32,880 nt of DNA. It comes from Acidilobaceae archaeon. Its GTDB lineage: Archaea > Thermoproteota > Thermoprotei_A > Sulfolobales > Acidilobaceae. The notes below the pieces were generated by a model that was given only the letters and a program-made list of their open reading frames with translations, did no database searches and was not told where the DNA came from. The stretch spans positions 1-32,880 of the forward strand of contig JAPYWV010000009.1 of assembly GCA_028276165.1 (NCBI GenBank), written 5' to 3'. A program made the translations under genes and the position numbers. Within the stretch, counting starts at the first letter, position 1; every line of letters starts with the position of its first letter. Shown here piece by piece: positions 22,398 through 32,167 of the stretch.

Positions 22398-23051
22398 GTG
22401 GATGGGGAGGGTAGGGTTGTGTTGGAGTTCTCCACAGCGAGGAGGCTAGGGTTCTGGGGTTCTGTGGTCGGCTTGGCGGGCTACCTCCTCTCCTTTATAC
22501 CCGAACTCTACGCCCTAGGGTTTGTGCTGATACTGACGGGGGTTGTGCTCGTGCTCGTAGCCCTGTACGGCTTGTCGAAGGTCTACGGGGATAGGAGCAT
22601 ATTCTGGAACGCTCTGCTGGCCACAATAGCCGCTGGGCTCGCCGTGATCCTCACCTTCGCACTACTACTAGCGACGGTCGCGTTCGGCCTACTCGGGGTA
22701 GCTGTGGGCGGCGGCGTGGGGGGCCTGGTGGCGGCTCTAGGAGCCTTCATCACCGTATTCACGCTCCTAACCGTGGCCGCGGTCGCCTCAGCACTCCTAT
22801 GGTACAGGGCTCTCGCAACCCTCTCAGATAAATCGGGGGTCGAGCTATTCAGATGGTCCGCGATCCTCTACGTCACAAGCATAGCGTTGTACATCGCGGG
22901 GCTCCTGCTATCAATCATCCTGGTAGGCCTCATCCTACTATTCGCAGTCTCAATCATAGACCTGGTAGGCCTCATCCTCCTAGCCCTAGGCTTCTTAGAA
23001 CTGAAACCGCCAGCAACCCGGACACCCCCAGAGAGCACGAAACCCGCCTAG
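22398..23051 (+). CDS. DUF996-like multispanning membrane protein
   Basis: A 217-residue membrane protein with about five or six hydrophobic segments. It has the DUF996 layout: a first pair of helices, then LVLVALYGLSKVYGDRSIFWNALLATI, the cytoplasmic loop motif, a long glycine-rich pair, and LLWYRALATLSDKSGVELFRWSAILY. Function of the family is unknown. The gene is markedly GC-rich: the 60 bases 22681-22740 contain 45 G or C. A second member, of normal composition, lies at 29627-30277. GTG 22398 starts the frame. Confidence 0.7.
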   Translation: MDGEGRVVLEFSTARRLGFWGSVVGLAGYLLSFIPELYALGFVLILTGVVLVLVALYGLSKVYGDRSIFWNALLATIAAGLAVILTFALLLATVAFGLLGVAVGGGVGGLVAALGAFITVFTLLTVAAVASALLWYRALATLSDKSGVELFRWSAILYVTSIALYIAGLLLSIILVGLILLFAVSIIDLVGLILLALGFLELKPPATRTPPESTKPA

Positions 23052-23708: not shown

Positions 23709-24554
23709 ATGAGGGATCCTGAGGCTCAGATGCTGGTTGGTTTCCTGGGGAGTAGGGGTGACCTGGGCTTCTGCATACTGGAGTACCCGCTGGACGTTTT
23801 CCTCGATGCCGGGCTGTGCAGGAGGCACAGATCTCTTCTCACTATGAGCCAGCTCCTTAGCAGGATCGACGCGGTGTGCTTCGAGGGCGTGGAGGAGCTG
23901 TCCCGGAGGCTCGGAGTGAGGATAGTCAGGTCTAATGATGTGGGCGGTGTAGTGTGCGACGCCCTAGAGGGGTCTAGGGCGGTCAACGTGATAGAGGCGA
24001 AGAGGGAGCTGAACAGGCAGGTCTTAGGAGACATACTCTTCGACATCTGGGTGGTGAGCACTTACAGCCCGGAGCTCCTGGGCAGAACCAGGTTCCACGT
24101 CGTGGTGGGGAGCGTCGAGCCCGGGAAGTACCTGGAGATGGCCTACAGGCTGGGGGTGGAGGTTCACGTGGTGGAAGAGGGGCGTCAACTCTTCCTAAGG
24201 GACGTGTGCGGTAGTATCACGAGGGGCGTCTTCATCCTATGCATTGAGGCCTCCGACGTCGCCAAGATCGAGTCGATAAGCGGTTTGATAAGCGGGCGCG
24301 ATGCGAAGCCCGCCCCGACCCCGTTGAAGCTCGAAAACGCCGAGGTGATCATGATCTACGAGGGGTCCAAGCCGCCCAGGTGCAGGTATAGCGTGAGGGG
24401 GGAGGCCGTAGAGATATACGAGTGCAACAAGCCAGTCACGGTCATCATATACAGCCGTGAGAGCGGGGGCGAGTGCAACTACGTCACCCTACGGAAAGAG
24501 GCGAGCAAGCCGTTAGACTTGTGGCTCCAGTCAAAAGACCCTCAGAGCTTCTAG
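23709..24554 (+). CDS. Unrecognised protein with a PD-(D/E)xK nuclease-like motif
   Basis: A 281-residue soluble protein of high GC (39 of 60 bases in 24121-24180). The centre reads VVCDALEGSRAVNVIEAKRE: Asp84, then Glu96-x-Lys98 on a hydrophobic strand, followed by a helix (NRQVLGDILFDIW), which is the order of a PD-(D/E)xK nuclease core with its orthogonal helix. The helix has LGDIL where many family members carry Gln. The C-terminal 80 residues are beta-rich with four cysteines (CRYS, YECN, CNY). The N-terminal 60 residues have further cysteines. I do not recognise the full-length family; nuclease function is inferred from the motif only. Start at 23709, eight residues before a second candidate Met. 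Confidence 0.5.
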   Translation: MRDPEAQMLVGFLGSRGDLGFCILEYPLDVFLDAGLCRRHRSLLTMSQLLSRIDAVCFEGVEELSRRLGVRIVRSNDVGGVVCDALEGSRAVNVIEAKRELNRQVLGDILFDIWVVSTYSPELLGRTRFHVVVGSVEPGKYLEMAYRLGVEVHVVEEGRQLFLRDVCGSITRGVFILCIEASDVAKIESISGLISGRDAKPAPTPLKLENAEVIMIYEGSKPPRCRYSVRGEAVEIYECNKPVTVIIYSRESGGECNYVTLRKEASKPLDLWLQSKDPQSF

Positions 24555-24867: not shown

Positions 24868-25101
24868 ATGAGTGTTTTTAGTGTTAAGCTTAGGAAGGAT
24901 GTTAAGGGGAGGATGGATAGGTATAAGGGTAGGGTTAACTGAGCTGATGAGGTGAGGAGGTTTACAGAGGATAATAGGTTGAGGGTGCTGGAGGCAGAGG
25001 ATAACATTAGGAGGGTTGTTGAGGAGCTCTCAAGGATACCCTTAGAGTCTCCTAGGGGTTCCTCTGTCGCCTCTGTGAGGGAGGATCGTGAGAGTCGTTG
25101 A
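24868..25101 (+). pseudogene. vapB: VapB-like antitoxin gene broken by an in-frame stop
   Basis: From ATG 24868 the frame gives FSVKLRKDVKGRMDRYKGRVN, a stop (TGA 24940-24942), then ADEVRRFTEDN and a charged helical tail to TGA 25099-25101. Crenarchaeal VapB antitoxins read RVNW(S/A)EEIRRF here, so the stop replaces the expected Trp codon TGG by one base. Without it the protein would have 77 residues, a normal VapB size with a strand-helix-helix DNA-binding start and a toxin-binding tail. The frame overlaps the downstream vapC start, the usual TA arrangement. As read, only a 24-residue peptide is made, unless translation restarts downstream. Confidence 0.75.
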
Positions 25102-25472
25102 CGCACCTGTGCTAGCTGTGTTTACTAGAAAGGAGCCTGGGTGGGAGAGGCTAGCTGAAGTCGTGAAAATGTGTAACCGTGGATCTAGCCGTGAAGGAGG
25201 TGTTAAACACGATATGGAGGGATTACCATGTTAGGAGAACCATTAGCTTAGACACGGCCATGAGGCTACAACAAGTACTATCATCAATGACCGGTATTAA
25301 CATCCCGCTAGAACCCGAAGACAAGTATGTATCGAGAGCGTTTGAAATAGCGGCAAAGACCGGTATAACCGTCTATGACATACTATACACGGTATTAGCT
25401 GTGGAGAAGAACACGCTATTAGCCACACTCTACGAAACTTTCTTCCTTGATCTCCGCATCTTTCAGCTTTAG
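25088..25472 (+). pseudogene. vapC: VapC-like PIN-domain toxin gene with a frameshift
   Basis: The first part from GTG 25088 reads VVDAPVLAVFTRKEPGWERLAEVVK, the start of a PIN toxin with its first Asp. The rest lies in another frame (25170-25472): TVDLAVKEVLNTIWRDY with the second acidic residue (Glu) and TGITVYDILYTVLA with the third (Asp). Deleting one A from the AAAA run at 25166-25169 joins them smoothly into about 127 residues, a normal VapC. The C-terminal end is unusual: where the family has LLTLDEKL, this one reads LLATLYETFFLD, so the fourth acidic residue is absent. With the antitoxin also broken, this looks like a decaying module. Confidence 0.75.
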
Positions 25473-25561: not shown

Positions 25562-25572
25562 GGTATAAATAA
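25562..25572 (+). promoter_or_regulatory. TATA box of the 527-residue restriction-like gene
   Basis: GGTATAAATAA is a near-ideal archaeal TATA box, about 40 bases before GTG 25610, so the gene has its own promoter and is not just read through from vapBC. Confidence 0.5.
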
Positions 25573-25609
25573 TTTTCCTATATCTTAGGGTTCGGTAGGG
25601 TGTTAGTCT

Positions 25610-27193
25610 GTGAGGGTTCCACAGTATAAGGTTAACGTGCACGTTGCAGAGTTTCTAAGCAGAATGGGCTTGAGTATTAGAGCTGAGGAGGTGTACAGGA
25701 CCCCTGTAAGGGGTGTTCGAATTCCTGATTTCACGTTATTACACCCGCTAGTGGGCCCAATGCTAGGTGAGGCTGAGGTTGGCGAGTCAGAGTACGATCC
25801 TGAGGCCGTGGAGAGGTTGAGGCGTAGGGTTGAGGGGAGGTTTGGTGATGTCCTGTTTAAAGGCTATGATTTCATCCTACTGCTCATCTATAGACTGGAG
25901 GATCTAGAGAGGCTTGCTGGGCTGGAGGAGCACAGGGTAGGAGAGGCGGTAGGCGGGGTTAACCTCGGTGTAGGTTTAGCTGTTAGAGGTGATGTCTTCG
26001 GACTCGGGAGCCACTACATAAACTACTACGGGGTGCCGGTGGAGGTTAAAGACATACCCGTGGTGTTAGACAAGCTTATACTCGAATTCTACTCCCACCT
26101 GCAGAGGGCATCACCTCAGGTTAGGGTGAGGATTAAAGATCTAGTCGAGGGCCTGGAGAGCATTATAAACGTTTATGCAAGCAACCTAGCGAGGAGCTTC
26201 ACGGACAAAGAGGATCTAGAGGAGGGCCTCGTAGAGAGATTCTATGACAACCTCTACAGGCTTATAGCCTTTAGGAGACCTGAGCTACTTAGATTCCACT
26301 TAGAGGTGATCAGCAGAAACAGTGTTAGGCTGGGAGAGCTCTTCGAAGTAGGGAGCATCATAGACCACACCACAGGGCTACACGTTACTAGGAGGGATGA
26401 GAGGGTTAGCGCGATCCACGAGCAACCAGCACTCTGGGGTTCCGGTGATAAGCTTGGCATCAAAACTGTAATGGTGGACAGGGCCCCCTGGAAGGTAGGC
26501 GTCGTACGTGAGAGCGATGTTAGGGTCAAATACTGGTCCCCTAGACAGACCTTCTATACAGCCAACCTCTTCGTGTTAAGGAGAGGCCAGCTGGATACAC
26601 AGTATGTTCTGGCCGTTAACGTGGGGGAGGCTAGTGTGTCAAACGAGTGGTGGCCTCTAAGGGCTAAAGCTGAACGGGGGGATCCACATCTGGTTGAAAA
26701 GCTCCTCGTATACATGAATAGCACGTTTGGATTCCTCTACCTCCTCGGGGAGCGCCTGGAGACAGAGGGTCTCTGGGTCGAATACAAGAAGCAACATATG
26801 TCGAGCATGATACTACCCGATCTAAGGCTCGCACCACCCCCATCCAGCGATGTCCTAGAAGCCCTTGGGAAACCCATGTCTAGGTTTAAGGAGTACCTGG
26901 AGGCTACAGCTAGGCTTAGTGAGAGGAGCGGTAAACCCTGGTATGAGGTTGCAGAGGAGCTCGTAAAGAGTGAAGGCGGGCTATCAACTAGAGCGAGGCT
27001 AGACCTAGAGGTCTACAGGTGGCTAAGGGAGGTATTCAAGGTAGAACCGCCGGCAAACCTCTATGCCATCCTATGGGATGAGGTGGTCGTGCTAAAGAAG
27101 GTAATGAAGGGTAGTGGAGGAGGGGAGGTTATAGAGGATAAAGTGGAAGGTGGGAGCACTGAGAGGCATGCTTCGCTAGATAGATGGTTTTAA
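25610..27193 (+). CDS. Restriction-like protein: nuclease-like N terminus, type IIG-like recognition region, no methyltransferase
   Basis: A 527-residue soluble protein. The N terminus reads GVRIPDFTLLHP, then MLGEAEVGESE: Asp40 and Glu54-x-Glu56, the spacing of a PD-(D/E)xK core with Glu for the usual Lys. The middle (about 150-250) is helical. From about 270 it resembles the C-terminal recognition region of type IIG and Eco57I/PglX-like enzymes: WSPRQTFYTANLFVLRR, YVLAVNV, SNEWWPLRAKA, then LLVYMNSTFGFLYLLGERLE and LWVEYKKQHMSSMILPDL, the last two matching their usual NSSL...G.GxLxxxKxxLxxLPxP logic. No SAM-binding or NPPY motif is present. A stand-alone DNA-reading nuclease, or the restriction half of a split system, are possible. 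Promoter and strong reading frame argue that it is active. Confidence 0.6.
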   Translation: MRVPQYKVNVHVAEFLSRMGLSIRAEEVYRTPVRGVRIPDFTLLHPLVGPMLGEAEVGESEYDPEAVERLRRRVEGRFGDVLFKGYDFILLLIYRLEDLERLAGLEEHRVGEAVGGVNLGVGLAVRGDVFGLGSHYINYYGVPVEVKDIPVVLDKLILEFYSHLQRASPQVRVRIKDLVEGLESIINVYASNLARSFTDKEDLEEGLVERFYDNLYRLIAFRRPELLRFHLEVISRNSVRLGELFEVGSIIDHTTGLHVTRRDERVSAIHEQPALWGSGDKLGIKTVMVDRAPWKVGVVRESDVRVKYWSPRQTFYTANLFVLRRGQLDTQYVLAVNVGEASVSNEWWPLRAKAERGDPHLVEKLLVYMNSTFGFLYLLGERLETEGLWVEYKKQHMSSMILPDLRLAPPPSSDVLEALGKPMSRFKEYLEATARLSERSGKPWYEVAEELVKSEGGLSTRARLDLEVYRWLREVFKVEPPANLYAILWDEVVVLKKVMKGSGGGEVIEDKVEGGSTERHASLDRWF

Positions 27194-29626: not shown

Positions 29627-30277
29627 TTAGAAGAGCTCGTTTACAAGAGCTTGTATGTAAGCTCCCGCTAAGAGTGCCCATGTTACCGCTTGTATTGCTA
29701 CCCCGAATATGTAAATGGGGATTCCAACCTGTGATATTAGGAGGAGCGTTGCCCCGGTTAGTACTAGTAGTGCTCCAACTAGACCCGACATCCCAGCCAT
29801 CATGAACCCGTATTCCTGTGAGAGCTCCGCCAGCTCCCTCAGTGATTTAAACCACATTATAGATCCTATGAGCCCGGCTACAGCGTTGGGTATGAATATA
29901 GCTGCTATAAGGCTTGGGTACGCCTCTACTATCATGTAGAGCCCTCCTTTAACGCGGAACATTATGTACAGCATATCCCATAAAACCCCACTAACCACCA
30001 AAACCCCTATAGCTGATATGAGGCCTAAAGTCCACATCGTGGCCCCAGCTAGAGCTTGCTTAAACACAACACTACTCCCCAGCGCGTGTGACATAGAGTA
30101 GAGGGAGGCTAAGACTAGGAAGACCCCTAAGGCTGAAGCTGGGAGAGCTGAGATAGGGGTGGCAAACCAGGAGATTAGGAGGTTGATGGTGAGCCCGAAA
30201 GCTGCGATCAGAGAGCCGATAGACCCTGCTACGAGGCCTGACAGCCACCAGAACCCCGGCATGGCGGGGGGAAACAC
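29627..30277 (-). CDS. Second DUF996-like membrane protein
   Basis: A 216-residue protein with about six hydrophobic segments and the same layout as the gene at 22398: a first helix pair, GVFLVLASLYSMSHALGSSVVFKQALAGA, a long middle pair, then IMWFKSLRELAELSQEYGFMMAG and two final helices. Sequence identity to the GC-rich paralogue looks low, so they are old or separately acquired family members. GTG 30277 is the start, about 30 bases behind a strong TATA box, implying a leaderless or nearly leaderless mRNA. The gap 29415-29626 beyond it shows nothing. Confidence 0.7.
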   Translation of the reverse strand: MFPPAMPGFWWLSGLVAGSIGSLIAAFGLTINLLISWFATPISALPASALGVFLVLASLYSMSHALGSSVVFKQALAGATMWTLGLISAIGVLVVSGVLWDMLYIMFRVKGGLYMIVEAYPSLIAAIFIPNAVAGLIGSIMWFKSLRELAELSQEYGFMMAGMSGLVGALLVLTGATLLLISQVGIPIYIFGVAIQAVTWALLAGAYIQALVNELF

Positions 30278-31510: not shown

Positions 31511-32167
31511 TTGTCTGAGGATCTTAAGAGGATAGAGGAGGCTGTTGAAAGGGCTGTTAGGAGAGCTCTAGCAGAGGCTAGAACCGAGGATCTAAGGATA
31601 CTAGCTGAGGCTGTGAAAACACTAGCTGACTACGTGAGGGAGGGGTTCAAGCTATTCAATGAAAGATTCGAGGGGGTAGACAAGAGGTTATCCTCATTAG
31701 AGAAGAGGTTATCCTCATTAGAAAATGAGGTTAAACGTTTAAAAAGCGATATCAGATACCTTACGAGCGCTGTTAATGAGATCAAGTCAGCTCTAGGGGT
31801 TACAATGGAGGATTACACCGCAGTATGGCTGTCAAGGTGGCTTGAGGAGAAAGGATACAAATGCGATGTGAGGACGAGAATTACAATAGTAGTCAACCCT
31901 ACAACAGGGGACTCAAGAGAAGTCGACGTCATATGCTGGAACCCACTAGTAGTAGGAGAGGTTACAACAACGATAAGAACAGTGGAGGAGGCCGAGAGGG
32001 AGATAGGGAAGCTGTTAGACAGCGTAGCATACGCGGAGAAGGTGGCAGGGGTCAAGCACTACGCTAAGATCTTAGCAGTAGAGGTAGCGCCAAGCGAGAT
32101 CACAGAATACCTGGAGAGGAGGGCCAGAGAGCTGGATATAACGCTAGTACTAGGCAGGAGATACTAG
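31511..32167 (+). CDS. Coiled-coil protein with a PD-(D/E)xK-like C-terminal domain (DUF3782-like)
   Basis: A 218-residue protein in two parts. Residues 1-95 are a long coiled coil (RIEEAVERAVRRALAEAR to VNEIKSALG), containing a tandem RLSSLEK/RLSSLEN. Residues 100-218 look like a restriction-endonuclease fold: DYTAVWLSRWLEEKGYKCDVR, REVDVICWNPLVVGEVTTTIRT with Asp139 and Glu150 but Thr where Lys is expected, then a helix and KILAVEVAP. Archaea carry many such DUF3782-type proteins of unknown function; the acidic pair makes a metal site possible. TTG 31511 starts it. The missing Lys makes catalysis uncertain. Confidence 0.65.
   Translation: MSEDLKRIEEAVERAVRRALAEARTEDLRILAEAVKTLADYVREGFKLFNERFEGVDKRLSSLEKRLSSLENEVKRLKSDIRYLTSAVNEIKSALGVTMEDYTAVWLSRWLEEKGYKCDVRTRITIVVNPTTGDSREVDVICWNPLVVGEVTTTIRTVEEAEREIGKLLDSVAYAEKVAGVKHYAKILAVEVAPSEITEYLERRARELDITLVLGRRY
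31682..31723 (+). repeat. In-gene tandem repeat of 21 bases
   Basis: AAGAGGTTATCCTCATTAGA(G/A) occurs twice in succession, adding one seven-residue heptad (RLSSLEK) to the coiled coil. The second copy also forms CCTCATT-AGAA-AATGAGG (31713-31730). The near identity at DNA level points to a recent duplication. Confidence 0.8.

Follow-up and report, generated by a model that had tools for sequence, protein, structure and literature searches.

The window analysed here, a stretch of 32,880 nucleotides from an Acidilobaceae archaeon, contains an open reading frame (ORF) at 25610-27193 that is a real coding sequence, because full-length homologues are matched with E-values of ~1e-51 for its N-terminal part and ~1e-86 for its C-terminal part. 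Both strings quoted for this ORF in the original prediction, NSTFGFLYLLGERLE and LWVEYKKQHMSSMILPDL, were found in its translation. The features of the gene are as follows.

25564..25571, plus strand: TATAAATA, an archaeal TATA-box-like sequence ~40 nt 5′ of the start codon, recognized by eye
25598..25602, plus strand: GGGTG, a ribosome-binding-like site 7 nt 5′ of the GTG, recognized by eye
25610..27193, plus strand: whole ORF, 527 aa with a GTG start, a probable methyltransferase-less derivative of a type IIG-like restriction-modification (RM) gene
25610..26119, plus strand: N-terminal PD-(D/E)XK-like domain, residues 1-170, assigned from predicted fold order, Foldseek and homology
25724..25777, plus strand: active-site-like motif P39-D40 ... 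E54-A-E56, with Glu at the canonical Lys position
26138..26233, plus strand: putative deletion junction zone, residues ~177-208, where alignments with full-length homologues place ~490 absent residues of linker and N6 methyltransferase
26234..27109, plus strand: predicted target recognition domain (TRD) and C-terminal helices, residues 209-500, assigned from homology, AlphaFold2 and Foldseek

Directly upstream lies a vapBC-like pair (window 24868-25472, plus strand) that has decayed. Its antitoxin frame is broken by an in-frame stop at 24940-24942, and its toxin frame from 25088 is shifted into a 97-aa ORF at 25179-25472, whereas intact homologues of the toxin piece mostly have 133-148 aa. This broken pair is the only defence-type neighbour of the gene, the ten ORFs in and around 25610-27193 had no match in PADLOC, and the spot looks like decaying accessory sequence rather than a working defence island. 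The absence of a nearby methyltransferase gene, as originally predicted, held for the window ORFs that were scanned, although further DNA methyltransferases are encoded elsewhere in this genome, on separate contigs.

Further nuclease-like or flanking genes were noted in the window. A 281-aa ORF (23709-24554, plus strand) with a D...EAK-like stretch (VIEAKRELNRQVLGDIL) had no match in Pfam or PADLOC and no homologue in 78 related genomes, and is possibly an orphan nuclease-like gene. DUF996-type membrane proteins flank the gene under study (22398-23051, plus strand, and 29627-30277, minus strand; one strong and one weak Pfam match). A 218-aa coiled-coil protein (31511-32167, plus strand), for which Pfam returned coiled-coil chance matches only, carries a C-terminal stretch that by eye resembles archaeal PD-(D/E)XK-like proteins.

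Relatives of the window protein were sought by a six-frame search of related archaeal genomes. The near homologues are a 1048-aa open frame in genome G013 (L012 4600-7746, minus strand) and a 1004-aa open frame in genome G059 (L013 2056-5070). Residues 1-193 of the window protein align to the N-termini and residues ~200-527 to the C-termini of these two proteins with 45-48% identity, while ~490 residues between both matched ends occur in the homologues only. This middle part carries DPACGTGS and NPPF and matches N6_Mtase (1e-11) and Eco57I (2e-8), and the distant family members (24-29% identity) are likewise ~1000 aa long with motif I and NPPF. Because the near homologues and the distant members are full length, parsimony suggests that the long form is ancestral and that the window form is an in-frame internal-deletion derivative.

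When an alignment was used as the query, the one record retrieved from named prokaryote contigs was that of G013, which is a Desulfurococcales archaeon MAG, and viral contigs yielded no relatives. The single window protein found no relatives in named prokaryote and viral contigs, no match in phages or in Pfam, PADLOC and NCBIfam, and chance matches only among PDB sequences. The full-length G059 copy adjoins an archaeal phage-integrase gene, and an integrase-like gene, seen in translation, lies upstream of a full-length copy in genome G314; both neighbours would fit a mobile RM gene.

The architecture proposed in the original prediction, a type IIG-style recognition part in the C-terminal half and a D...ExE core at the N terminus without the SAM and NPPY motifs, was borne out. 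The C-terminal part matches the C-terminus of full-length RM proteins, P39-D40 ... E54-A-E56 is present and invariant in the two nearest homologues, and the sequence lacks a SAM motif and NPPY/F. All family-invariant residues of both ends are retained in a frame that is open over 527 codons. The spacing of the motif is PD40-x13-E54-A-E56. In the family alignment, the near homologues both read E-A-E and the distant ones E-A-S or E-G-S, so that every member examined has Glu or Ser in the position of the canonical PD-(D/E)XK lysine. The next helix carries a conserved R/K in this alignment, which might substitute for the lysine. Because the lysine is missing from all members examined, cutting by the full-length enzymes themselves is unproven.

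AlphaFold modelling followed by Foldseek, one of the checks that had been proposed together with the original prediction, pointed to a PD-(D/E)XK-like order at the N-terminus and a TRD-like C-terminus, with no Foldseek E-value below 1e-3. In the AlphaFold2 model of the window protein (15 rows, mean pLDDT 72.7), residues 5-95 are predicted to form helix-strand-strand-strand-helix-strand, which is the order of PD-(D/E)XK folds, and the helical connector region is partly retained. Foldseek matched the recognition part weakly to BsaXI, M.BseCI, CamA and TaqI, and the nuclease part, also weakly, to VRR_NUC, XisH and the Cas4-like ACE1 (E-values between 1.6e-3 and 0.25); among viral models, PD-(D/E)XK nucleases and adenine methylases were matched. 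These results are consistent with what the sequence shows, but they are no proof of the domain identities. The model of the full-length G013 protein was too poor to interpret (mean pLDDT 47).

Comparison with the homologues places the deletion at ~1.46 kb, in frame, with loss of the helical linker and the methyltransferase and with a break that coincides with domain borders. The junction zone contains an imperfect 15/17-bp direct repeat (26138-26154 and 26213-26229); counting this one, the 32.9 kb have seven places of the kind, and the repeat is no more than suggestive. We also considered a split gene with the methylase elsewhere in the genome. No homologous methylase was found, although unrelated DNA methylases exist: the full-length query retrieved only the two end pieces and one match with E=0.06 from this 87% complete genome, and other contigs encode, as read from translations, a type I set and two further DNA-methylase candidates.

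Comparable losses were identified in two closed genomes. In G314, which is one closed contig, a full-length 1016-aa copy (L065 6337-9387, plus strand) is accompanied by a 597-aa copy (L066 5872-7665, minus strand). The two are 97.4% identical across 1131 bp on the N side, and their identity across 584 bp on the C side is 90.8%. From the shorter copy ~1.27 kb are gone, and its junction carries the 7-bp sequence GGCACAC; the same 7 bp stand at either end of the lost segment, a pattern that a microhomology-mediated deletion would leave. Like the window gene, the 597-aa copy is an in-frame deletion form, of independent origin, that keeps the nuclease and TRD ends; unlike the window gene, it belongs to another branch of the family, has other break points, has a full-length paralogue and retains motif I without NPPF. 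The methylase-less copy is a mosaic, near-identical to its full-length paralogue up to the TRD and strongly diverged over the last ~80 codons, where synonymous changes are saturated. In G009, a relic consists of the two ends only. It contains an in-frame stop, and ~216 bp take the place of an expected ~2.4 kb; judging from its sequence it is clearly dead, an obvious pseudogene.

Read from these alignments, internal methylase loss is real and recurrent, and has apparently taken place at least three times in the archaeal family (window, G314 and G009). The other short forms (G013:C4, G247, G521, G462, G516 and G524) were rejected as clean methyltransferase-less genes, since they carry frameshifts, are truncated by gaps or contig ends, or are mere fragments. 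A methyltransferase-less orthologue of the window gene was found in none of 214 genomes of the order, nor in the samples of the class and phylum, so that among these samples the form is confined to the genome of the window rather than being a conserved stand-alone defence gene. Synteny within the genus, followed through the neighbouring TtuA-like gene, gave only 31-34% matches, which are probably paralogues and so revealed no empty site, and dN/dS of the window gene was unusable with nearest homologues that are only ~47% identical.

The suggestion that this is an undescribed defence gene is therefore not upheld. Its methylase appears simply to have been deleted from an ordinary ~1000-aa single-chain RM enzyme, which would account for a gene without a methylase; no methyltransferase-less orthologue occurs outside this genome in the samples searched, the vapBC pair upstream is broken, and the parallel deletion forms elsewhere include an obvious pseudogene.

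Among known systems, type IIG single-chain RM enzymes of the BpuSI/Eco57I-like kind (nuclease, gamma-class N6 methyltransferase and C-terminal TRD) share both end domains and their order with the window protein, and its near homologues have the complete architecture. The C-terminal TRD is present, as judged by homology and weak structural matches, and at the N-terminus the predicted fold order and weak Foldseek matches agree with a PD-(D/E)XK domain, yet Glu replaces the lysine. The gamma-class N6 methyltransferase with its AdoMet motif and NPPY/F, which defines these enzymes, is absent, so that the window protein is a derivative of the class and not a member. Membership in BREX PglX or the MADS methyltransferases was rejected, since the window protein had no NCBIfam match and a full-length homologue scored ~26 bits against a cut-off of 500 (BREX) and 48 against 720 (MADS).

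Two published cases are similar. HVO_A0006 of Haloferax volcanii is, like the window protein, an archaeal PD-(D/E)XK remainder of a type IIG gene whose methylase is missing (PMC4389544), but it comprises just the N-terminal piece (219 aa), has a canonical E-A-K and lacks a TRD, and the rest forms a separate gene, whereas the window protein has its two ends fused and the middle lost. Solitary restriction endonucleases, 99 of 272 of which were judged likely fragments, share with the window gene a nuclease without a cognate methyltransferase (PMC3488263); there, however, R and M usually belong to different genes or subunits, whereas here one polypeptide lost its internal methylase. The nuclease-TRD fusion by internal deletion is a variant of such fragment cases, and a limited literature search found no description of it.

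We consider it likely that the window gene is what remains, largely disarmed, of a mobile type IIG-like RM gene and not a dedicated defence system. The ancestor would have been a horizontally spread single-chain gene with the order nuclease, helical linker, N6-adenine methyltransferase and TRD. As the comparison with the homologues shows, the in-frame loss of ~1.46 kb took away linker and methyltransferase and left the nuclease-like domain fused to the TRD. Because the AdoMet and NPPF motifs were lost, the product should be unable to methylate. In type IIG enzymes, AdoMet is either necessary for cleavage or stimulates it (PMC4081073). Because the AdoMet site that licenses cleavage sits in the methyltransferase, which together with the TRD holds the DNA, we infer from the literature that the protein most likely cuts poorly or not at all, and such a disarmed protein would explain the survival of the cell without cognate methylation. 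The TATA-like and ribosome-binding-like sites and the open frame would indicate either a recent deletion or some remaining constraint, and together with the retained invariant residues they suggest that the protein may be made.

The full-length homologues, the failure to find the methylase elsewhere, the parallel deletions in G314 and G009, the broken vapBC upstream, the part that AdoMet plays in type IIG cleavage (PMC4081073) and the published precedents of type IIG and solitary-enzyme fragments (PMC4389544, PMC3488263) count for a disarmed remnant. Against it count the open frame, the retained invariant residues, the TATA-like and ribosome-binding-like sites and a break that falls neatly at domain borders, and the loss of cutting is deduced.

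The same open frame, with conserved motifs at both ends, would be expected if the nuclease-TRD fusion still cut and the host were kept safe by another methyltransferase or by the reading of modified or foreign DNA. Because other methylases are encoded in the genome, it is conceivable that another enzyme gives protection or that the protein reads modified DNA, and the in-frame analogue in G314 has a full-length paralogue whose TRD is nearly the same, with dN/dS between the copies of 0.21 (N part) and 0.06 (TRD), although these values mix the periods before and after the deletion. Given that the AdoMet switch is lost, that the catalytic lysine is out of place throughout the members examined, that no methyltransferase-less orthologue was found elsewhere in the samples searched and that PADLOC matched no defence genes among the ten ORFs nearby, we regard a working restriction protein as unlikely. 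It is similarly doubtful that archaeal type IIG-like genes repeatedly lose their internal methyltransferase under selection and so give rise to 'restriction-only' nuclease-TRD proteins. Such proteins would be tolerated if the site were protected by a paralogue or some other methylase, a situation for which the G314 pair would leave room, or if the shortened protein attacked foreign or modified DNA alone; for the window gene, a selected 'restriction-only' function is possible but unsupported.

An assembly artefact, in which the methylase part of a gene that is really full length was dropped when a metagenome-type assembly joined two pieces, would fit a genome in 158 contigs that is 87% complete and a junction seen in no second genome, but it appears improbable: the two ends meet in frame where domains border on each other, the other contigs carry no methylase piece of this family, and the closed genome G314 has a comparable deletion. 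Very improbable, finally, is an accessory subunit that acts in trans with type I or other RM enzymes and lends them its nuclease or recognition domain: the genome has a type I set, the model still shows part of a helical connector region and the same role was proposed for the similar H. volcanii fragment (PMC4389544), but the effect on methylation reported for HVO_A0006 was not reproduced with deeper sequencing (PMC5867850), and the window gene shows neither conservation nor linkage with other RM genes.

With the window gene read as a largely disarmed remnant, a puzzling methylase-less restriction protein is explained as a deletion product. The full-length copy and the copy without methylase that the closed genome G314 encodes have recognition domains that are nearly the same, and this pair makes it testable whether a type IIG-like nuclease can act without its own methylase.
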